Shown piece by piece: positions 777 to 10,398 of a stretch of 10,876 bases of DNA (position 1 is its first letter; the number at the start of each line of letters is the position of its first letter). The stretch is from assembly GCA_027297085.1 (NCBI GenBank), contig JAPUIL010000591.1, positions 1-10,876 of the forward strand. Direction: 5' to 3'. This DNA comes from Verrucomicrobiota bacterium (GTDB taxonomy: Bacteria > Verrucomicrobiota > Verrucomicrobiia > Opitutales > UBA2995). The notes beneath the pieces were generated by a model, which was not told the DNA's origin, did not search any database, and saw only the letters and a program-made list of their open reading frames with translations. Made by a program: the position numbers and the translations under genes.

Positions 777-884
777 AGTCTTCCACCCGTTTTTAACCTT
801 TGCGGAGTCACGTTGTTTCCCTAGGACTTGAATTCTTCTACTTACAAAAACTCCGGGATCGCAATCCCTCTTAAATCTCCACAC

Positions 885-2336
885 ATGCCTAAAACTCTAT
901 TATTTCTTTTTAGCGTCCTTTGTTTGTCTACGTTTTTGAACGCCAAGAATCCCAATATCCTCATCATCCTGGTGGATGACATGGGCTATGGAGATCTGAA
1001 GAGCTACAATCCTGATTCCAAGATACCGACGCCTCACCTGGATAAATTGGCGGCCCAAGGCATGAGGTTTAATGATGCTCACTCGGCTGGCTCTCTTTGT
1101 CATGCCTCTCGATACGGGCTGATGACCGGGCAGTTGCCCTTTCGCATCGATTATTCCCTCTGGCCAAAGCATGCACTGATCGAAGAAGACCGCATGACGA
1201 TTGCGTCACTACTGAATGGCGAAGGTTACCACACGGCCATGGTTGGGAAGTGGCATCTGGGATTTGAAGAAAACGGCTATGAAAACTCGCTGCCAGGCGG
1301 ACCGGTGGATGTGGGGTTCGATAGCTATTTTGGTATTCGGGCTTCTACGGATATTCCTCCCTATTTTTATATAAGTGGGAACCGGGCGCTGGTCCCACCG
1401 GTTGATCGAATTTCTGACAATTTTAGTGATGACCCCCCTTGGACGCGAATTCAAGGAGCCTTCTGGCGGGAAGGTGGAATTGCACCTAACCTGCAACTTG
1501 AGAATGTGCTTCCGCGTTTTACCGATGAAGCAGTTGGCGTGATTCGGGACCATGCTCGATTGGATTCTGAGAAACCGCTCTTTCTTTATCTAGCTTACCC
1601 AGCGCCTCATACTCCCTGGTTGCCATCAGAAGCCTTTGTCGGCGCGACCAACAATATGTATGGCGACTTCACTGCCATGGTGGATCACATGATTGGTCGT
1701 GTGCTAACCGCTTTGGAAGATGAAGGTATGCGCGAGGAGACCTTGGTGATTTTCAGTTCGGACAATGGCCCCGTCTGGTATCCAAAAGATGTCGAGCGAT
1801 ACGATCATGATTCAACCGGTGGTATGCGTGGTATGAAAGGGGATGCCTATGAAGGTGGGCATCGTATGCCTTTTATCGTGCGTTGGCCGGGTGAGGTGGA
1901 AGCCGGTTCTGCTACGGATCAGACTATTTGTTTTACCGATGTGTTGGCAACTTTTGCGGAGGTGACAGGCAAGAAATTGCCAAAAGGTCAGGGGCCGGAT
2001 AGTTTCAGTTTTCTGGCAGCCCTCAAGGGTAAGGGAAAACCAAATACCGATGTTCGAGGGCCATTGGCTCTAATTTCAGCTCGTGGACATTATTCTCTTC
2101 GCTCCGGAAAGTGGAAATATATCAATGGTCTGGGATCCGGTGGTTTCTCAGATGGTTTTGATAAGGATTACAAAGCAGTGAAACGAGGACCCAACGATCC
2201 GACGGCACAATTATATGATATGGAGAACAATTCAGGAGAGACGACCAATCTTTTTAATACTTATCCTGCCAAAGTGAAAGAGTTGGCGGCTGAATTGGAT
2301 CGAATTATTGAGGCAGGTCATACGCGTCCTTATTAG
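885..2336 (+). CDS. Secreted sulfatase 1 (S1 family, CxAxR variant)
   Basis: A formylglycine-dependent sulfatase of the alkaline phosphatase superfamily, expected to hydrolyse sulfate esters outside the cytoplasm. The ATG at 885 gives 483 residues and begins with a clear signal peptide (hydrophobic LLFLFSVLCLSTFLNA, cleavage after about A20). The in-frame TTG at 828 would only add a hydrophilic tail before the signal. Seen in order: metal ligands D31-D32 in LVDDMGYGD; the nucleophile motif C72-H-A-S-R76 followed by YGLMTG; K122 and H124 in GKWHLG; H242 in PAPHTPW; D293-N294 in SSDNGP; K318 in MRGMKGDAYEGG. All catalytic positions are present, but the usual Pro of C-x-P-x-R is Ala. Length is normal for the family. 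There is no Shine-Dalgarno. It ends 3 bp before sulfatase 2, so the two are surely co-transcribed. The substrate cannot be read from the sequence; sulfated polysaccharide is the likely class. Confidence 0.93.
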   Translation: MPKTLLFLFSVLCLSTFLNAKNPNILIILVDDMGYGDLKSYNPDSKIPTPHLDKLAAQGMRFNDAHSAGSLCHASRYGLMTGQLPFRIDYSLWPKHALIEEDRMTIASLLNGEGYHTAMVGKWHLGFEENGYENSLPGGPVDVGFDSYFGIRASTDIPPYFYISGNRALVPPVDRISDNFSDDPPWTRIQGAFWREGGIAPNLQLENVLPRFTDEAVGVIRDHARLDSEKPLFLYLAYPAPHTPWLPSEAFVGATNNMYGDFTAMVDHMIGRVLTALEDEGMREETLVIFSSDNGPVWYPKDVERYDHDSTGGMRGMKGDAYEGGHRMPFIVRWPGEVEAGSATDQTICFTDVLATFAEVTGKKLPKGQGPDSFSFLAALKGKGKPNTDVRGPLALISARGHYSLRSGKWKYINGLGSGGFSDGFDKDYKAVKRGPNDPTAQLYDMENNSGETTNLFNTYPAKVKELAAELDRIIEAGHTRPY

Positions 2337-2339
2337 GGT

Positions 2340-4094
2340 ATGCATAACATGAGTAGTGCTCGCGTGCCGAATGTGTCAGGTCGCAGCTTTCTGCGAAGCC
2401 CGAGCGAGCCGTTTCCGACCAGGCGGTTTGGGCCAAACCGCCCTGCCATATTAGCGTTTATTCTTATTGGTTTCTTCTATGTCATCTTTCTGCCTTCATC
2501 CTTCTGCGTTCCAAATCGCCCCAATATCCTTCTAATCGTTTCCGACGATCTTGGCTACAGCGACCTGGGTTGTTTCGGAGGAGAGATCGAAACGCCGAAC
2601 CTTGATCGGTTGGCAGAAGAAGGAGTGCGACTTACTCAGTTTTATAATACCGGCCGTTGTTGCCCTTCACGTGCAAGTATTTTAACTGGACAATACCCGC
2701 ATCGAGTTGGCCTGGGGCATATGACCATCGATTTAAACCGTCCTGGCTATCGTGGACGTGTTTCTGAGGAGGCGCAAACGATTGCCCAGGTTTTGGAGCC
2801 AGCTGGATATCGATCGTTTATCGCCGGTAAGTGGCATTTAGGTACGAAGGATCCGACGCAGCATGGGTTTGAGGAATTCTATGGAACGCTGGTCAGTGCC
2901 AAACGGTTTTTTGATCCGAGTCATTTACTGCGTCTACCTGAAGGGAGAAAGGCTCTCAGCTATGAGGAAGGCGAGTTCTACGCAACGGATGCGATCACCG
3001 ACCATGCGTTGGATTTTCTTTCCCTGGCGAGGGAAACGCCTGAACGGCCCTGGTTTCTATATCTTGCGCATCCAGCTCCACATTTTCCGTTGCATGCGCC
3101 CAAAGAGGAGATCGCCAAGTATGCCGATCGATACCATGAGGGATGGGATAAAATTCGCGAGGAGCGGTTAAAGAAGATGAAGGCTCTTGGAATCGTTTCG
3201 GAAGAAACAGAGCTCACGCCGCGGTCGCCTTATTGGAACTACGGAGAAACGGTAACCGGGACCAATCCGGCTTGGGCAGATATCTCAGACCCCAGTCGGC
3301 GAGAAGATCTTGCTAGGAGAATGGCAATCTTTGCGGCTATGGTGGATCGGATGGATCAGCAAATTGGTCGAGTGATTGAGGATCTGAAAGCCAATGACGA
3401 ATTTGAAAATACCCTGATCATTTTTTTGTCTGACAATGGAGCTTGTGCGGAGTGGGACTGGAAAGGTTTCGATGAGAGATCGAGTAACATAAATCATTTG
3501 CACGAAGGTTTTGAAGGTCTGGATAGCATGGGAGGCTCCGGCACTTTTCACAGTGTAGGTTCTGGATGGGCCAACTCATCGAATACACCTTGGCGGATGT
3601 ACAAGCATTATAACTACGAGGGTGGAACTAATTCCCCTGGCATTATTCACTGGCCGGCGCGATTGAATTCCATGGCCGGGCAACTGCATCGTCAGCCAGC
3701 TCATGTGATTGATCTTTTGCCGACTTTTGTAGCGGCTGCAGATATTTCTTATAAGGGAGAATTGCCACTGCCCGGTGAAGATTTATTGGCACAGATATTT
3801 GGCGAAGACTCCAGTTTCCGCACCCTGTATTTCGAACATGAAAGCAACCGGGCTATCCGGGAGGGTAACTGGAAGTTGGTCGCCTTAAAACACGAGCCTT
3901 GGGAACTCTATAATATGAGCCGGGTAAGAACGGAGATGGAGGACCTCTCTGGAAAATATAAAGATGTGGTCACCCGCTTGAGTGGGAAATGGGACGACTG
4001 GGCGGAGGAGAATTTTGTGACACCGCTGCCCAAGGATTATGGGGTGAAGTATCTTAAGAAAAGGGTCGAGGGACGTGGGGCGAGAGACGAGTGA
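2340..4094 (+). CDS. Secreted or membrane-anchored sulfatase 2 (arylsulfatase, CCPSR)
   Basis: A 584-residue sulfatase resembling the arylsulfatase (AtsA-like) branch: NTGRCCPSRASILTG contains the canonical C107-x-P-x-R111, converted to formylglycine in active enzymes. Other visible active-site residues are D69-D70 (VSDDLGYSD), K164 and H166 (GKWHLG), H248 (PAPHFPL), D365-N366 (LSDNGA) and K422 (MYKHYNYEGG). Residues 180-350 hold a larger insert than in the two neighbours. The ATG at 2340, or the one at 2349, follows the stop of sulfatase 1 almost directly. No other usable start lies nearer the hydrophobic segment AILAFILIGFFYVIFL (36-51), so the protein has an unusually long, basic N-terminal region of about 35 residues before its signal or anchor. 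That part of the DNA carries two hairpins. The C-terminus ends in a basic, purine-rich tail. Confidence 0.93.
   Translation: MHNMSSARVPNVSGRSFLRSPSEPFPTRRFGPNRPAILAFILIGFFYVIFLPSSFCVPNRPNILLIVSDDLGYSDLGCFGGEIETPNLDRLAEEGVRLTQFYNTGRCCPSRASILTGQYPHRVGLGHMTIDLNRPGYRGRVSEEAQTIAQVLEPAGYRSFIAGKWHLGTKDPTQHGFEEFYGTLVSAKRFFDPSHLLRLPEGRKALSYEEGEFYATDAITDHALDFLSLARETPERPWFLYLAHPAPHFPLHAPKEEIAKYADRYHEGWDKIREERLKKMKALGIVSEETELTPRSPYWNYGETVTGTNPAWADISDPSRREDLARRMAIFAAMVDRMDQQIGRVIEDLKANDEFENTLIIFLSDNGACAEWDWKGFDERSSNINHLHEGFEGLDSMGGSGTFHSVGSGWANSSNTPWRMYKHYNYEGGTNSPGIIHWPARLNSMAGQLHRQPAHVIDLLPTFVAAADISYKGELPLPGEDLLAQIFGEDSSFRTLYFEHESNRAIREGNWKLVALKHEPWELYNMSRVRTEMEDLSGKYKDVVTRLSGKWDDWAEENFVTPLPKDYGVKYLKKRVEGRGARDE
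2381..2442. repeat. Two tandem hairpins inside the start of sulfatase 2
   Basis: TCGCAG (2381-2386) pairs with CTGCGA (2391-2396) around a CTTT loop. Thirty bases on, GGCGGTTTGG (2422-2431) and CCAAACCGCC (2433-2442) form a perfect 10-bp inverted repeat. The stretch is visibly richer in GC than its surroundings and encodes the odd basic N-terminal extension of sulfatase 2. It may be a palindromic repeat inserted in the gene, or an RNA structure controlling translation of the downstream cistron. Confidence 0.5.
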
Positions 4095-4114
4095 AGTGAT
4101 GAGTAAGCAGGACT

Positions 4115-4120
4115 TATAAT
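4115..4120 (+). promoter_or_regulatory. Possible -10 box for sulfatase 3
   Basis: A perfect TATAAT lies in the 173-bp gap before sulfatase 3. The -35 position is poor (GTGAAG, 3 of 6, with an 18-bp spacer), so this is weak evidence. If real, the REP-like unit and a small hairpin (CATGGCT 4126-4132 with AGCCATG 4137-4143) would be in the leader. Confidence 0.25.
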
Positions 4121-4151
4121 ATAGCCATGGCTGTTAAGCCATGAATGAAAA

Positions 4152-4208
4152 TGTAGGAGCAAACTTGTTCGCGACTCTGTGAGTTTAATAATTGAAGGTT
4201 GCTCCTTA
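4152..4208. repeat. REP-like unit with truncated inverted partner
   Basis: A 23-bp unit at 4152-4174 begins TGTAGGAG, contains ACTTG, and ends CGA. Within it GCAAAC and GTTCGC pair (5 of 6) around TT, so a CTTG loop closes the stem. A second, inverted and shorter copy (AAGGTTGCTCCTTA, 4195-4208) pairs with the first half. The layout matches bacterial REP/BIME elements, and the same unit recurs at 5911-5977. Confidence 0.6.
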
Positions 4209-4267
4209 TACGCGTTAACACTGACACCTGAACGCTGAATTTGATTAAGATTATGATAAAAATTAAG

Positions 4268-5605
4268 ATGAGGACACTAACGACGATTTGTATACTTGGT
4301 CTAACCGTCGGCACTTTTCTGAGAGCCCAGGACCGGCCCAATGTGGTGGTAATCATGACGGACGATCAAGGGACCCTGGATCTGAATAGTTATGGTGCTA
4401 AGGATTTATTTACTCCCAACTTCGATCGGATGGCGGAGAATGGGGTGCGGTTTACTCAGTTCTATGTAGGGTCCTCGGTGTGTTCGCCATCACGAGCTAC
4501 TTTGTTGACTGGCAAGTCTCCTCCAGGAGCTGGCTTGACCGGGAACTCTGGAAAGACCGGAGGGCTGCCGTCTGAGCAAGTTACCATTGCTGAGATGTTG
4601 AAACCGGAAGGTTACGCCACAGCCCATATTGGCAAATGGCATTTGGGCAAAGATCGGGGGAGGCGTCCGGAAGATCAGGGCTTCGATTACACATTTGGCC
4701 ATATGGAGGGCTGCATAGATAACTACTCCCATTTTTTCTACTGGAGCGGTCCCAATTACCACGATTTATGGGAGAATGGGAAAGAGGTGTATGAAGACGG
4801 CTATTACTTTCAGGACAGTTTGGTAGAAAAAGCCCGTCGTTTTATTTATGAAAATAAGGATCAGCCTTTCTTTATCTACTTTGCCATTAACTTGCCCCAT
4901 TACCCGCTACAGCCGGATGCAAAGTGGTTGGAGCATTACAAGGATCTCCCGTCGCCTCGTAAAAACTATGCAGCCTGTGTATCCACAGTGGATGAAAAAG
5001 TAGGGAAGCTGATCGGAATCCTCGATTCCGCCGGCGAACTTGACAATACCTTGGTCATCTTTCTTTCGGACCATGGACATTCGGTTGAAGAGAGGACGAT
5101 GTGGGGTGGGGGATTTGCCGGACCTTATCGGGGATCGAAGTTTGGTTTCTTTGAAGGAGGTTTGCGCGTGCCGGCCATTATTATGGGACCGGGCATTTCG
5201 AAGGGAATAGAGATTCACAATTCGGCTATGAGTATGGATCTACTGCCGACCATTGCCGATTATTGTGAGGTTTCAAAACTTCCCCAAGGAGTGGAAGGCA
5301 CGAGTCTACGATCCATGCTGACGGGTCAGGATAAACGCCTCCGGGACACCATGTATTGGAATATGAAAAACGATCGTTGGGCGGTGCGTTATGGCTCGTG
5401 GAAATTGTTATTTAATCCACGTGATGACACCAAGGATTATCCGCCTTTGGATCCCAAGAAGGATCGATATTTTCTCGCCAATTTAGACATGGATAAGTCA
5501 GAAAGCCGTAATCTTGTCCGGGAATATCCAGAGAAGGCCAGGGAACTTATCGAAGTGTATAAAGGTTGGGAGCATGCGTTGCCGGTGGAACCTTTACGTT
5601 TATAA
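4268..5605 (+). CDS. Secreted sulfatase 3 (S1 family, CSPSR)
   Basis: A third exported sulfatase, 445 residues from the ATG at 4268. That start gives a standard signal peptide (MRTLTTICILGLTVGTFLRA, cleavage before Q21). In-frame starts at 4241 (TTG) and 4253 (ATG) only add lysine-rich residues and cannot be excluded. Active-site residues seen: D32-D33 (MTDDQGTLD), the canonical C72-S-P-S-R76 followed by ATLLTG, K123 and H125 (GKWHLG), H211 (NLPHYPL), D268-H269 (LSDHGH) and K291 (YRGSKFGFFEGG). The metal-site D-N pair of the two neighbours is D-H here, a known subgroup variant. It shares the general plan of the neighbours but differs in length and in the substrate-side loops, so it is not a recent tandem duplicate and probably acts on a different sulfate position or sugar. 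The 173-bp gap upstream suggests it may also be transcribed separately. Confidence 0.92.
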   Translation: MRTLTTICILGLTVGTFLRAQDRPNVVVIMTDDQGTLDLNSYGAKDLFTPNFDRMAENGVRFTQFYVGSSVCSPSRATLLTGKSPPGAGLTGNSGKTGGLPSEQVTIAEMLKPEGYATAHIGKWHLGKDRGRRPEDQGFDYTFGHMEGCIDNYSHFFYWSGPNYHDLWENGKEVYEDGYYFQDSLVEKARRFIYENKDQPFFIYFAINLPHYPLQPDAKWLEHYKDLPSPRKNYAACVSTVDEKVGKLIGILDSAGELDNTLVIFLSDHGHSVEERTMWGGGFAGPYRGSKFGFFEGGLRVPAIIMGPGISKGIEIHNSAMSMDLLPTIADYCEVSKLPQGVEGTSLRSMLTGQDKRLRDTMYWNMKNDRWAVRYGSWKLLFNPRDDTKDYPPLDPKKDRYFLANLDMDKSESRNLVREYPEKARELIEVYKGWEHALPVEPLRL

Positions 5606-5635: not shown

Positions 5636-5903
5636 TAAACCCAAACGTTTCAAACGCCTTCATAAGGGCAGGTCTTATATGTATTAAAAGCAATGAGTTA
5701 GGAATGTTAGTATAGATTTTCATATCCTCACAAAATGTGACGCTACAAAATTGCCCTTTTGAAGGCTAAAACCGACATGCGCGGATAGCTTCGTTCCAGC
5801 CCGCAACCCGCTTGGTCACGTAGTTTTCTACGCTCCCGCGCTTGCTTGCAGTCTGCGCCTTGCTCTCCATCACATCTCGATTTTTTTGAAACTGTTGGGT
5901 AAA
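5636..5903. mobile_element. MITE-like element, copy A, with TAAA target duplication
   Basis: A 260-bp non-coding element (5640-5899) is flanked by TAAA at 5636-5639 and again at 5900-5903. Its ends are imperfect inverted repeats: CCCAAACGTTTCAAACGCC at the left, and CCCAACAGTTTCAAA read inward from the right. It aligns along its whole length with copy B (8248-8506, reversed), and its left 115 bp or so with copy C. An internal hairpin CGTAG-TTTT-CTACG lies at 5819-5832. No open reading frame of note is present, so it must be mobilised in trans. Confidence 0.8.
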
Positions 5904-5910
5904 GAATAGA

Positions 5911-5977
5911 TCGTCAGCAACCTAACTCCTACAGTTGAGAGTTCCGAATCGAGGTGTAGGAGTTAGCTTGCTGACGA
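5911..5977. repeat. Paired REP-like hairpin (BIME-like)
   Basis: Two 23-bp arms, 5911-5933 and 5955-5977, are inverted copies with a single mismatch and a 21-bp loop. The right arm starts TGTAGGAG and contains GTTAGCTTGCTGAC, which itself folds into a small stem with a CTTG loop. It is the same family as the unit at 4152-4174, with different stem bases that still pair. It starts 7 bp beyond the target duplication of MITE copy A. Confidence 0.7.
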
Positions 5978-6001
5978 ATCGGTATTCCACGTAATGGTAC
6001 A

Positions 6002-6036
6002 ACAAAACAGCGATTAGAAGCTAATCGCTGTTTTGT
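6002..6036. terminator. Bidirectional intrinsic terminator
   Basis: A perfect 16-bp inverted repeat, ACAAAACAGCGATTAG (6002-6017) and CTAATCGCTGTTTTGT (6021-6036), is closed by AAG. Each strand therefore gives a stem followed by TTTTGT. It lies between the converging sulfatase 3 (stop at 5605) and lsrF-like (stop at 6086) genes, where a shared terminator is expected. Confidence 0.75.
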
Positions 6037-6085
6037 GAAAGTAGGCAGAGACTTAAAATCCACTAGGCCCTTGCTATTAATATGA

Positions 6086-6973
6086 TCACCGCGCGGCGTC
6101 CGCCCTCAGGCTATCGTACATGTCCAAAGCTTCGGCGGGTTTCATGTCTTCGTGGACCACCTTGCCGATGGTTTGGATCATAGCTTTAGGGTCATCGGCC
6201 TGGAAGATGTTGCGGCCCATGTCCACTCCGGACGCACCTTGCTGAATGGCGTTGTAGGCCATGGTCAGGGCATCGATAACAGGAAGTTTTTTTCCGCCAG
6301 CCATGACGATTGGAACCGGGCAGGAGGATGTTACTTTGGCAAAGTCTTCTGGAACATAATAGGTTTTTAGAATGTTCGCTCCCAACTCAGCGCACATTCG
6401 GCAGGCGAGTTGAAAATACTTCGAGTCTCGTTTCATGTCTTTGCCCACGGCTGTGACGGCCATGGTGGGAATACCGGCCTGGATGCCCATGTCGATGAGC
6501 TTGGTCATGTTCTTGATCGAGCGGCTTTCGTATTCGCCACCTATAAAGACTTGTAGGGTAATGGCCGATACATTCATGCGAATGGCATCTTCGATAGATA
6601 CTGATAAATGTTCGTCAGACAATTCTTTCAAAATACTGGGCCCACCACTGCAACGCATGACAATCGGTTTGTTGAGGGTAGGCGGTACGATCGAGCGCAG
6701 GATTCCACGTGTGAGCATGAGAGCATCCGCATAAGGCATGATCGGTACGATGTTCAGGTCGACTCGTTCGAGACCTGTGGTCGGTCCCTGGAAGTAACCA
6801 TGGTCGATTGCCAGCATGACGGTCCGTCCACTGCTGGGACGGAAGATGCGGGAGAGGCGGTTTTTCATTCCCCAATCCAGGTTCTGGGAGCCTTTTAGGA
6901 AAAAGCCCGGGCTTTTTTGTGGAACGTCTTCGTGGAAATTCTTTTCCGCTTTGGAAGTATCTGCTTCTGGCAT
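6086..6973 (-). CDS. lsrF: LsrF-like aldolase/thiolase (autoinducer-2 catabolism type)
   Basis: A 295-residue class I (Schiff-base) aldolase-fold protein that closely resembles enterobacterial LsrF. In that system LsrF moves an acetyl group from 3-hydroxy-2,4-pentanedione 5-phosphate to CoA, the last step of phospho-AI-2 breakdown. Recognisable blocks are [13 protein letters not shown] (32-44), [20 protein letters not shown] (51-70), the TRGILRS loop (88-94), [14 protein letters not shown] (167-180), ILKTYYV (201-207) with K203 at the same number as the catalytic lysine of E. coli Lsr[12 protein letters not shown] (221-231) and [13 protein letters not shown] (246-258). Length matches the family. 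The protein is cytoplasmic; no signal peptide is seen. The ATG at 6973 has no clear Shine-Dalgarno. It follows an alpha/beta hydrolase gene by 59 bp on the same strand and ends before a strong terminator. None of lsrK, lsrR or the lsrACDB transporter is nearby, so its substrate here may not be AI-2. Confidence 0.88.
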
Positions 6974-7032
6974 AATATATATCTTTGGTGTGTTAAAGAG
7001 TCTTAGTTATTAGTGACAAATAAGTTATTGTT

Positions 7033-7836
7033 TTAATGCGCCTGTAACCATTCGAAAACGCGCGGATTGAAGTCATCCGTGTATTCAAAATGGAAGGCAT
7101 GGCCGGCATCGTCATAAAAATGTGTGTCACAGTTGGGAATACCCGCGGCCACTTCTTTCCCCATCCAAAGCGGGGTAAAGATGTCGTCCTTGCCACCGAT
7201 GACCAGGCACGGCTGAGAAATGTCGCCCAGCTGGTCGAGAACATCGTGGGTAGTGCAAGCTGCGGCCTGACCTTCCAGACCATGAAGTGGTTGAGGATCA
7301 GGGGAGGTGGCAAATCCTTCGCGGCCTTCAATAAGACCGGCGTAACTTTCGGTGTTATCCCAAAATGGTTTAGTGAAAATCAGGAGCTGAACCCACTCCA
7401 TGAATTGCGCGGGAGAGAGGTGAGCGAAACATACTTTCATATGTTCGAAAATCGATGTGGCGTAGCTATCACAGCGAGCCCAGGGGCACATGAGAACGGC
7501 GCTTTTCACTTTCTGTGGATGGCGCAAGCAAAGTTGTTGAGCAATAATGGATCCCATAGAAACGCCTACCACCCTGGCGGATTCGATGCCTAGCGCATCC
7601 ATCAAGCCGGCATAGTCATCCGCCATCTCTGCGCTGCTATAATCTCCGGCTGGCTTGTCCGTCTGGCCTATGCCTCGGTTATCTACCATGATGCAGCGGT
7701 AATTCTGTTGCCAATGCTCGGCATGCACTTCCCAGACAGCTCCCGGGGCCGTAATCCCCATAATTAAAAAAAGCGGGTCACCGGAACCACGCTCCTCGTA
7801 ATACATCTGAATTCCGTTAGTTTCTACGTGAGGCAT
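7033..7836 (-). CDS. Alpha/beta-fold hydrolase
   Basis: A 267-residue cytoplasmic alpha/beta hydrolase. The nucleophile elbow is G-V-S93-M-G, the acid is probably D217 or D218 in GGKDDIFTP, and the base is H246 in DDAGHAFHFE, giving a complete Ser-Asp-His triad. The oxyanion-hole strand is LFLIMGITAPG (22-32), and VDNRGIGQTDKP (51-62) is the usual loop after strand 4. This layout is shared by 3-oxoadipate enol-lactonase-like and related esterases, a large group of mixed function, so the substrate is not predictable. The ATG at 7836 starts the protein exactly as the family does (MPHVETNGIQMYY); no Shine-Dalgarno is seen. It is the first gene of a likely two-gene unit with the lsrF-like gene 59 bp downstream. 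A shared pathway, for example hydrolysis of an ester or beta-diketone before or after the aldolase step, is possible but unproven. Confidence 0.87.
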   Translation of the reverse strand: MPHVETNGIQMYYEERGSGDPLFLIMGITAPGAVWEVHAEHWQQNYRCIMVDNRGIGQTDKPAGDYSSAEMADDYAGLMDALGIESARVVGVSMGSIIAQQLCLRHPQKVKSAVLMCPWARCDSYATSIFEHMKVCFAHLSPAQFMEWVQLLIFTKPFWDNTESYAGLIEGREGFATSPDPQPLHGLEGQAAACTTHDVLDQLGDISQPCLVIGGKDDIFTPLWMGKEVAAGIPNCDTHFYDDAGHAFHFEYTDDFNPRVFEWLQAH

Positions 7837-8243
7837 GTTTTGATTGAGATATTCGGGTTAGAAATTGGTAGGGAGAGAATGATTCCCCAAGAAGAGTCAG
7901 CAGTTTGTTGAGCCATTTTGAGCGGATCAATACTTTATCCAGAATTCCGCAGTTAAATGATGAAAAACTGTCTGGACACAAAAACACCCGCATTACTCCC
8001 AACCTGCTAAAGTTCCCTTCAGGAAGCAGTTAAGGTAATTTCATCGCAAATAGCTACCAGAGCGCTTGTCGGATTGGTTAGATAAATAACTACCCTATGC
8101 GTGTTAGTTTCCCTGCATCTCTCCTAATCCAAATCCCCGATGCTTTCCGCCGATCGAAATAAATCTCTGACCAATTTCTGACAGCAATAATCCAAGCTTG
8201 AGTCTCAACAGGGATTCTCTAGAAATATAGGGACCACTCCCAC
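7837..8243. other. Gene-free stretch upstream of the hydrolase gene
   Basis: About 400 bp contain no reading frame with protein-like composition on either strand, and I see no RNA gene. It must hold the promoter for the minus-strand hydrolase-lsrF pair, but no convincing -35/-10 pair stands out. The short frame at 7817-8002 is not supported by any recognisable motif. Confidence 0.5.
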
Positions 8244-8510
8244 TCTACCTCATAGTTTCAAAAAATCTAGATGTGATGAAGAACAAGGCGCTGTTTGCAA
8301 TCAAGCGCGGGAGCGTAGTATTCTACGTAACCAAGCGGGTTGCGAGCTGGAACGCAGTTCTTCGCGCATGTTGATTTTAGCCTTCGATAGGGCAATGTTG
8401 TAACGTCACTAATAGTGGTGCTTGAAAAGTTTATACTAATATCCATAACACACTGATTTTAAATGAGATAAAGCCTGCTCTTTCGAAGGCGTTTGAAACA
8501 TTAGGGTCTA
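8244..8510. mobile_element. MITE-like element, copy B, with TCTA target duplication
   Basis: A 259-bp element (8248-8506) is flanked by TCTA at 8244-8247 and 8507-8510. It is the reverse complement of copy A along its full length, differing mostly by scattered substitutions. Its outer ends read CCCTAATGTTTCAAACGCC from the right and CCTCATAGTTTCAAA from the left. The internal hairpin CGTAG-TATT-CTACG (8314-8327) keeps the stem of copy A with another loop. It carries no gene. Confidence 0.8.
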
Positions 8511-8576
8511 CTCAATCCGCTATGGACCAATATTATCCTCCCAGTCCAGACAACGGTTCTTCTCAATCACGAAAGG

Positions 8577-8693
8577 ATGAAAGCTGAAAATCAGTCGTCC
8601 GGTCTAGAGAAGTTCCGGCAGGAGTTGAAGCGCCGCAAGGTCACGCGGCTGGCGATTATCTATGCGGTGGTTGAGCAAAATCCCAAATTCTGA
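8577..8693 (+). pseudogene. 38-codon N-terminal remnant of an 'ELKRRKV' membrane protein
   Basis: The frame from ATG 8577 to TGA 8691-8693 encodes 38 residues containing LEKFRQELKRRKVTRLAIIYAVV. This resembles the start of a large group of membrane-anchored regulatory proteins in Verrucomicrobiota and other bacteria (TPR proteins, kinases or adenylate-cyclase-like proteins), which begin 'F..ELKRRKV.RVAIAYAVV' at their transmembrane helix. The match stops after AVV, and the frame ends eight codons further on in unrelated sequence leading to the epoxide hydrolase gene. I read it as the 5' stump of a gene lost by deletion. It starts 66 bp after the target duplication of MITE copy B. It could alternatively be a small expressed protein. 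Confidence 0.5.
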
Positions 8694-8736
8694 ACCTCTA
8701 ATTTTTGTATTTATCAATAGGTGCAACAGGACTGTT

Positions 8737-10008
8737 ATGAAAGAAAAGATGAACCGTCGCCAGGCGATACAATGTATTGCTGCTCTGGCGCCGGTAACAA
8801 TGATTAAACAAGCAGCGGCCGCCGATCCCGCAACTCAAGTCCAGAAGAGTGCCTGGTCCTTAGATCAAATCTCTGAAATAGGTCCTTACTCCAATAGCGT
8901 ACTTCCGAATGGGATTCGCTCGCGATTCGTGGACAACATTAACGGGCTCCGAATGCATGTGCTTGAGGCAGGTTTTGAAGACGGGAATCGACCGGGTGTT
9001 CTGCTTTTGCACGGCTTCCCGGAGCTTGCCTACAGTTGGCGGCGTGTAATGGTTCAATTGGCAGAAAATGGGTTCCATGTGATTGCACCAGACCAGAGGG
9101 GCTATGGTCGTACAACAGGATGGGATCGCGACTACGATGGCGACCTCGCTTCGTTTCGGCTGTTAAATCTAGTCCAGGATGTGCTTGGTTTGGTATACGC
9201 TATGGGGCATCGCCAGGTGGCAGTGGTTGGGCATGATTTCGGTTCGCCTGTTGCCGGTTGGTGTGCAGTCACCCGTCCAGACATCTTTACATCTGTTGCA
9301 ATGATGAGCGCACCATTCGGCGGTACTGGATCGTTGCCGCTCGATACAGCCAATGAACCGTCTCCAACTATCCTTAAGGATAATCTCTATGAGGACCTAG
9401 CCAATCTCCCGCGACCACGAAAACACTACTCGCGGTACTATTGGACCCGTGAAGCCAATGAAAACATGTGGCGTGCATCTCAAGGTCTTCACGCTTTTCT
9501 GCGAGGTTACTACCACTACAAGAGTGCCGATTGGAAGGGAAACAAGCCTTATCGACTAGCTTCGAGGACGGCCGTTGAAATGGCAAAAATGCCTACCTAT
9601 TATATCATGAATTATGCCGACGGCATGGCAGAAACAGTTGCTGAACATATGCCTTCAGCCTCAGAAATCGCCGCCAATAAATGGCTGCCTGACAAGGAGC
9701 TTCAAGTATATACGGATGAATACAGGCGCAACGGATTCCAAGGAGGATTAAATTGGTACAGAGCCTCTGTCCTTGGTCGCGCTGAGAAAGAGAGTTTTGC
9801 AGGTAGAAAGATCGAACAACCATCTATCTTCATCTCGGGAGTTAGCGACTGGGGTAGTTACCAGAATCCAGGAGCTCTGGAACGATTACAGAATGAAGTC
9901 TGCACGAACATGCGAACTGTTCATATGGTAGATGGTGCGGGACACTGGGTGCAGCAGGAGCAGTCGGAAAAAACCGGGCAATTGCTAGTTGACTTCCTGC
10001 GTACTTAA
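8737..10008 (+). CDS. Exported epoxide-hydrolase-like alpha/beta hydrolase
   Basis: A 423-residue alpha/beta hydrolase of the epoxide hydrolase type, which opens epoxides to diols through an Asp-ester intermediate. ATG 8737 is chosen because AGGA sits 5 bp upstream and because the protein then begins MKEKMNRRQAIQCIAALAPV, a twin-arginine-like leader with cleavage near AAAA-D30. The longer frame from 8662 runs back into the gene remnant and has no family support. Seen: oxyanion motif HGFPE (92-96), APDQRGYGRT (117-126), nucleophile D167 in VGHDFGSP, a lid rich in Tyr and Trp (228-345) with candidate ring-opening tyrosines such as Y341 in LNWYRAS, a possible acid D371, and base H403 in GAGHWVQQE. 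Haloalkane dehalogenases share the Asp nucleophile, but HGFPE and the lid fit epoxide hydrolases better. It appears to be transcribed alone. Confidence 0.85.
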   Translation: MKEKMNRRQAIQCIAALAPVTMIKQAAAADPATQVQKSAWSLDQISEIGPYSNSVLPNGIRSRFVDNINGLRMHVLEAGFEDGNRPGVLLLHGFPELAYSWRRVMVQLAENGFHVIAPDQRGYGRTTGWDRDYDGDLASFRLLNLVQDVLGLVYAMGHRQVAVVGHDFGSPVAGWCAVTRPDIFTSVAMMSAPFGGTGSLPLDTANEPSPTILKDNLYEDLANLPRPRKHYSRYYWTREANENMWRASQGLHAFLRGYYHYKSADWKGNKPYRLASRTAVEMAKMPTYYIMNYADGMAETVAEHMPSASEIAANKWLPDKELQVYTDEYRRNGFQGGLNWYRASVLGRAEKESFAGRKIEQPSIFISGVSDWGSYQNPGALERLQNEVCTNMRTVHMVDGAGHWVQQEQSEKTGQLLVDFLRT

Positions 10009-10118
10009 AAACCTCGGACGTCGAATCAGCCTCCCCATCTTTCTCAACCGCGGGGAAGGTAATAAGATCAATGGACCTCTATACATAAAATTGGAATAAT
10101 AAATCATGCATCGCCAAG

Positions 10119-10303
10119 TTTACCCAAACGTTTCAAACGCCTTCGTACTGAGCCCTTGGCGACAGCGAAGCGAAAATAACAAGAGCATTTTTGTAATGTC
10201 CCATTTTGTGAGGATTTTAAAATCTATTCTAATATTCCTAACTCAATGCTTTTTAAACACATAAGACCTGCCCTAATGAAGGTGTTTGAAACGTTTGGGT
10301 TTA
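10119..10303. mobile_element. MITE-like element, copy C (short form), with TTTA target duplication
   Basis: A 177-bp element (10123-10299) is flanked by TTTA at 10119-10122 and 10300-10303. Its terminal inverted repeats are nearly perfect over 22 bp: CCCAAACGTTTCAAACGCC at the left and CCCAAACGTTTCAAACACC read inward from the right. Its right 115 bp or so, reversed, match the left part of copy A; the rest (about 10145-10185) is not found in A or B, and the central hairpin is missing. It lies 21 bp from the encoded CCA of tRNA-Gln. No gene is inside. Confidence 0.78.
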
Positions 10304-10324: not shown

Positions 10325-10398
10325 TGGCTGCCCGACATGGATTTGAACCATGACAAAGAGAATCAGAATCTCTCGTGCTACCATTACACTATCGGGCA
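10325..10398 (-). tRNA. tRNA-Gln (anticodon CTG), CCA encoded
   Basis: The minus strand folds as a full cloverleaf. The acceptor stem is TGCCCGA/TCGGGCA, the D-arm GTGT-AATGGTA-GCAC, the anticodon arm AGAGA-TTCTGAT-TCTCT with anticodon CTG, the variable loop TTGT, and the T-arm CATGG-TTCAAAT-CCATG. Discriminator G is followed by an encoded CCA (10327-10325). The first pair U1-A72 and G73 are the identity elements known for bacterial tRNA-Gln, which agrees with the anticodon. It reads the CAG codon; a TTG-anticodon tRNA-Gln should exist elsewhere. Confidence 0.95.

Follow-up and report, generated by a model that had tools for sequence, protein, structure and literature searches.

Three miniature elements in the window and their relatives in the genome

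The DNA considered here, called the window, is a stretch of 10,876 nucleotides that makes up contig C547 (JAPUIL010000591.1) in the assembly of a Verrucomicrobiota bacterium of the order Opitutales (GCA_027297085.1, G000 among the genomes compared; 849 contigs, 75.9% complete). Beside sulfatase-like, aldolase and tRNA genes, it holds three copies, A, B and C, of a short repeat with the features of a miniature inverted-repeat transposable element (MITE). The boundaries proposed in the initial annotation, with exact duplications of 4 base pairs (bp), TAAA, TCTA and TTTA, were confirmed in the sequence (Table 1), and no listed open reading frame (ORF) of at least 80 amino acids lies inside the copies. 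The terminal repeats described there as shared are so over ~15 bp, with the common pattern CCC-A--GTTTCAAA, but the two ends are of different types, CCCWAACGTTTCAAACGCCTTC on the left and roughly CCCWANNGTTTCAAAAAATCKAGATGTGATG on the right (CCTCATAG... in copy B), so that the inverted repeat extends over only ~15 bp. Copy C lacks the other (right) arm and hence carries a left-type end on both sides, and R1, a covariance model of that arm, gives no match there; a copy on contig C461 likewise consists of the left arm only.

A genome-wide search with copy A, as the initial annotation had proposed, gave at least 44 matches in the own genome (40 of 90 first-look candidates scored). The left end, at up to three mismatches, was found 67 times against two for a reversed control, and a reduced core of the end, CCCWANNGTTTCAAA, had 68 exact matches against none for its reversed control. 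Matches to copy A and to the core motif combine into 68 merged places, with 40 of the 44 copy A matches entered in the merging and the remaining four coinciding with places in the count; stretches were retrieved around matches on 68 contigs, a few places known from the core motif only not being among them. Among 55 candidate end pairs, 25 are flanked by an exact 4-bp duplication; in 1000 shuffles of the flanks the mean number was 2.8 and the highest 10. A filter on both ends and on length (up to 450 bp) left a strict set of 37 elements of 95-431 bp, in which all four bases of the duplication agree in 23, three in nine, two in three and one in two. A and T make up 90% of the bases in the 23 exact duplications, 16 of which fit the pattern TNNA (background 6.8%). 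TNNA, proposed earlier as the target, is therefore retained as a preference and rejected as a rule, since 7 of the 23 deviate (among them ATTA, TAAT, CAAT, TAGT, TTTC and TTAT), and the target is better described as AT-rich, usually TNNA.

Two empty sites can be read in orthologous or homologous genes of relatives. The copy on contig C396, with a TCTA duplication, splits an aldo/keto-reductase-like gene (identified by eye from its translation), the orthologue of which in G004, a sibling of the same genus, is uninterrupted across the site and has a single TCTA; the interrupted reading frame in G000 has further stops besides the insertion. The copy on contig C18, with an ATTA duplication, splits an ORF whose homologue in G002 (52% identical) is gap-free at the junction, with ATTG for ATTA. 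At 11 sibling loci with the genes that flank A, B and C, the element motifs of these copies were absent, the intergenic DNA being too diverged for empty sites at base level. The repeats are thus short, with terminal inverted repeats, without a transposase gene, and present as many dispersed copies with target duplications and two single-target empty sites, which bears out the earlier view that a transposable unit has inserted separately and depends on an enzyme encoded elsewhere. Insertion, duplication and empty sites are visible in the sequences themselves; the enzyme and the role of the right arm are conditional parts of the reading preferred here, to which a probability of roughly 0.85 is given: A, B and C would belong to a MITE family of ~259 bp that an IS1380-family DDE transposase moves in trans by cut-and-paste and whose right arm is kept as an RNA-like fold.

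The initial annotation had also taken the density of copies as a sign of recent or frequent activity. Three copies within 4.5 kb have a probability of ~0.11 under uniform placement of 68 copies, which is not significant, and a burst seen in three copies in under 5 kb is rejected; near-identical copies elsewhere do support some recent movement. The copies on contigs C18, C396 and C812 are 96.6-97.6% identical to one another, and copy B shares 95.8% identity with a G002 copy that lies at another locus with different flanks, whereas the G002 matches to genes around the window copies reach 65-78% identity only. This difference implies that the family has moved after the species split, and probably that it has been transferred between lineages. 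Carriage by plasmids or phages was rejected, as plasmid and phage collections had no match to copy B and two exact-pattern scans of viral contigs found nothing.

Table 1. Positions in the window of the three copies, their arms and modules, and their target duplications. Copies A and B are both among the 30 sequences behind model R1, so their own scores are not independent.
Feature	Position	Strand	Basis
Target duplication TAAA, left flank of copy A	5636..5639		sequence
MITE copy A, 260 bp, left-type end first	5640..5899	+	genome search, end-pair scan
Conserved folding (right) arm, copy A	5765..5899	-	model R1, 149.3 bits on -, 22.6 on +
Target duplication TAAA, right flank of copy A	5900..5903		sequence
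Target duplication TCTA, left flank of copy B	8244..8247		sequence
MITE copy B, 259 bp, left-type end at right side	8248..8506	-	end-pair scan
Conserved folding (right) arm, copy B	8248..8381	+	model R1, 152.5 bits
Target duplication TCTA, right flank of copy B	8507..8510		sequence
Target duplication TTTA, left flank of copy C	10119..10122		sequence
MITE copy C, 177 bp, one-arm derivative: left arm, two left-type ends	10123..10299	-	no R1 match
Hairpin module X2 in copy C	10145..10174	-	1 mismatch in 30 bases against a form unchanged at 8 other places
Target duplication TTTA, right flank of copy C	10300..10303		sequence

Around the copies, the window contains three consecutive sulfatase-like genes (828-5605), the first with a Pfam Sulfatase match and the other two recognised by eye because their start motifs are similar; siblings retain the neighbourhood of the second and third. 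On the reverse strand, a PIN-domain gene adjoins a Phd/YefM-type antitoxin gene (40-697), likely a toxin-antitoxin pair. Two near-perfect inverted repeats, perhaps terminators or another repeat, lie between copy A and the aldolase gene (5911-5977 and 6002-6036), a sequence beside copy B (~8600-8665, +) resembles by eye the start of a truncated gene broken off before the next gene, and a tRNA-Gln (CTG) gene lies 25 bp from copy C (10325-10398, -). Elsewhere in the genome, two places with MITE-like starts (L058, C116:3527; L067, C555:86) have identical 12-bp left flanks and extra internal inserts, perhaps through segmental duplication or as a contig-end artefact, and on contigs C588 (L036) and C580 (L197) another repeated sequence, possibly an unassembled insertion sequence (IS), seems to break MITE copies at contig ends.

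A strand-specific fold in the right arm, and the hairpin modules

The 30 module-free copies that were aligned come from seven genomes and measure 252-264 bp, mostly 257-262 bp; common ends enclose two imperfect palindromic arms, of which the right one accounts for roughly half the length of the element. The strand of copy B that runs from right end to left end folds at -88.5 kcal/mol (z -5.6), against -64.9 (z -3.1) for the other strand. In the consensus structure of the 30 copies, 96.2% of the cells are paired, against 91.3% in shuffled alignments, and a shift of the pairing partners lowers the paired cells to 30-43%. Changes on both sides occur at 20 of 53 pairs, against 8.1 in shuffled alignments, with 60 such cells against 15.0; these counts are not independent events, because the copies share ancestry and the structure was taken from the same strand on which it was then scored, which weighs against the preferred reading. 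With that qualification, the covariation and strand-specific folding expected of a structured element are both present. A known RNA family was rejected for the arm, as Rfam 15 gave only the tRNA of the window at gathering scores and nothing for 8200-8560 at E up to 1.

The arm is not confined to this genome. Run on 387 genomes of the phylum, model R1 found it in at least five, namely the own genome, G081, G102 and G111 (same order) and G656 (same class), and further occurrences were likely missed because filters were strict and eight candidates were scored per genome. The element in G111 (L253), with ends CCCTAATGATGCAAACG and CCCGGATTATGCAATCGG, matches the left end of the MITE at 15 of 17 bases and has a CCC right end, which makes it a distant member of the family, probably a diverged but full-length relative. 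In G081, the element around the arm at L250 is ~240 bp long and has inverted ends of another kind, TAGCCCG-A-ATCTCA (14 of 16 bases paired), and L250 and L255 represent a further repeat that shares the conserved palindromic right arm but differs in its left part. The arm in G656 stands alone inside inverted ends of the AGACTCGGGA type, and around the arm in G102 and at the second G081 locus inverted ends were looked for and none were found.

One reason for the persistence of the right arm may be that a transcript of the element folds and has an effect, possibly as a signal for processing or stability or as a noncoding RNA that the element mobilises; a single folded DNA strand could do the same but is the less likely agent. 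An alternative that stays short of an even chance but has to be taken seriously is that the palindromic arms matter only as DNA, as a cruciform, as protein-binding palindromes or as a by-product of palindromic origin, with a strand bias inherited from one ancestor. The kinship of the copies speaks for it, as does the fact that the promoter and the transcript of the arm are hypothetical. In addition, the folded strand would be read from neighbouring genes in only 9 of 28 cases, and the opposite strand in 19 (crude gene calls); read-through from upstream genes is thus not supported as a use of the fold, and an own promoter or a role of single-stranded DNA is therefore also to be considered. This orientation counts against the simplest version of the folded-transcript idea and in favour of the DNA-only explanation. 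The latter is disfavoured by the excess of G-T over A-C cells (204 against 14, or 67 against 14 without majority-wobble pairs, in a structure taken from that strand). It is further disfavoured by the free folding of each strand, in which one and the same strand has the stronger fold in all 30 copies, by 22.5 kcal/mol on average, and the model strand at all five distant loci, and by a combined alignment of five MITE copies and the five distant loci, fitted to the model, in which 24 of 38 pairs carry changes on both sides (12.2 in shuffled alignments). Maintenance of the arm as a strand-specific, RNA-like fold is hence preferred over a role as DNA alone.

A broader proposal, tentative and rather doubtful, starts from the arm as modelled by R1: it could represent a structured noncoding RNA of a class not yet described, or a signal in a folded single strand, that miniature transposons spread as cargo, here between IS1380-type ends and, in at least two other genomes of the phylum, inside different inverted repeats, and that in this family grows by the addition of hairpin modules. 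The occurrence of the arm with a related left end in G111 slightly lowers the odds of this cargo-RNA proposal.

In longer copies, which reach 431 bp, discrete modules occupy fixed positions, and by eye several of them look capable of forming hairpins. In the copy of 431 nucleotides, modules X1 and X2 pair over 15 bp and lengthen one helix; the two are not always together in the same copy. In the preferred reading, copies would diversify by gain and loss of such modules and by loss of a whole arm, as in copy C. It seems unlikely that the modules are instead independently mobile tiny palindromes, like the short dispersed repeats of cyanobacteria, and not parts gained or lost by recombination between MITE copies. 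The same modules do occur at the same positions in different subfamilies, and among 12 elements X2 is on average 93.9% identical while the arms on its two sides reach 72% and 81%, an excess that is inflated because the module set was chosen by similarity. All 11 matches of X2 and all nine of X3, at up to three mismatches, nevertheless lie within or directly beside MITE sequence, so that free-living repeats are not supported.

An IS1380-family transposase as the probable mobiliser

The ends and the 4-bp duplication pointed to the IS1380 family, and an IS1380 transposase was therefore sought with PF13701 in 53 genomes, the own genome included. Matches were obtained in 14 of the 53. The sibling G004 encodes a protein of 484 amino acids that scores 228.8 bits against the NCBIfam IS1380 model (NF033539; cut-off 180). 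Its IS element starts with CCCAAACGTTTCATA (in a longer form, CCCAAACGTTTCATAAATC), the first 13 bases of which match the left end of copy A, and ends with CCTCATAGTCTCATAAAAA (the complement of CCTCATAGTCTCATAAAAACG), close to the end of copy B, CCTCATAGTTTCAAAAAA. G002 has a truncated IS1380 copy with the same first end as in G004, and the IS ends of both genomes match the MITE exactly over 13 bases. Within the order, 22 of 372 genomes match the G004 transposase protein, and G360 carries an intact IS1380 element with 68% protein identity to that of G004 and with ends, CCCACCAGTTTCATAAAAACG and GCTAACTGTTTCATAAATACTC, similar to those of the MITE; its flanks, TAAA/TAAA, are an exact duplication, the only exact case among the IS1380 elements examined. 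Among the scanned PF13701 loci, L118, L131 and L136 have end motifs with two mismatches. An IS with matching ends, for which the initial annotation had proposed to look, is present in G004 and, with similar ends, in G360, but such an element was not found in the own genome.

Several observations weigh against this assignment. The G004 element has flanks ACAA/ATAA and a degenerate IS1380 copy in G005 has CAAA/TAAA, each matching at three of four bases. The end motif, at up to one mismatch, lies at only 3 of 30 scanned PF13701 loci (G004, G002 and G052), and in G052 (L138) the motif, with one mismatch, is followed by sequence of the MITE right arm. As far as seen, the IS and the MITE have only their ends in common, ~13-15 bases; end-only sharing is a usual relation between a MITE and an IS that acts in trans. 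Finally, the own genome has no match to PF13701 or to the G004 protein, which is weak evidence because the assembly is 76% complete and divided into 849 contigs; the gene may have been lost or may not have been assembled.

A full-length IS delimited by facing ends was rejected for the own genome, where the 68 exact core matches form no facing pairs 0.6-5 kb apart except the A-to-B and A-to-C combinations of the window. In the single-contig genome G001, none of the seven exact core matches forms a facing pair of IS size, by eye, and a scan of the genome collection with the G004 transposase confirmed a single locus, that of G004 itself. The common ends and the target duplication suggest that the missing enzyme is probably an IS1380-family transposase. 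Supplied in trans, it would recognise ~15 bp at each MITE end (CCC-A--GTTTCAAA) and insert the element by cut-and-paste into AT-rich 4-bp targets, usually TNNA, which would thereby be duplicated. That the same family is moved by another DDE-family transposase with CC-rich ends and a 4-bp target, the IS1380 ends having converged or been captured, is very improbable: it would fit the lack of a detectable IS1380 gene in the own assembly, the ~13-15 terminal bases as the only common sequence seen and a transposase scan that covered the IS1380 family only, but three related IS1380 elements (G004, G360 and the truncated one in G002) with the same or similar ends are in place, one with an exact TAAA duplication, and no IS of another family appeared among the facing core pairs 0.6-5 kb apart in the own genome (weak evidence, given the short contigs).

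Comparison with known systems

The literature search found no description of this MITE family, mostly from titles and listings and without comparison with ISfinder, so that it is apparently undescribed, as the initial annotation had thought possible; the searched text of one review (PMC10969869) makes no mention of IS1380. The family belongs to a bacterial order that has received little study, and it can now be given exact target sites, clean empty sites and a likely enzyme that drives it. Moreover, the body of a MITE, expected to be free to decay, here keeps a strand-specific fold across bacterial families, which is an unusual case, and whether transcripts of bacterial MITEs act becomes a directly testable question.

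Members of the IS1380 family have ends that start with CC and produce target duplications of 4-5 bp. The G004 element resembles them in its single DDE transposase of ~480 amino acids, above the cut-off of NF033539, whereas the window elements differ in having no transposase, in their length (95-431 bp in the strict set) and in sharing, as seen, only end sequence. IS1247 of Paracoccus, of the same family, is tabulated with a 5-bp duplication (PMC3281130). According to PMC2229807, RUP of Streptococcus pneumoniae, for which IS630-Spn1 is the proposed mover, is likewise a MITE linked to an IS through its end sequences and target, but it is 107 bp long and involves another IS family and another target. 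The same paper lists CIR of Caulobacter and Brucella, which also has two long inverted-repeat arms but is listed without terminal inverted repeats, a distinction by description and not by sequence, and ERIC, whose transcript affects mRNA stability depending on its orientation. The pneumococcal BOX elements, as outlined in PMC3049150, are modular small repeats with transcripts predicted to fold and an optional internal module whose presence does not disturb the main fold; their modules are copies of a boxB-type unit, whereas the present family has several different hairpins at several sites and an exact target duplication. Palindromic repeats are also represented in Verrucomicrobia by the GTAG-tagged REP sequences, abundant in O. 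terrae, but according to PMC3733652 these are palindromes of 20-40 bp tied to RAYT transposases and not to a DDE enzyme. The literature thus already contains MITEs linked to an IS (RUP), repeats that are modular and fold (BOX) and repeats with two arms (CIR), and the surprising part of the present family is a conserved, strand-specific arm that it has in common with repeats bounded by other ends.

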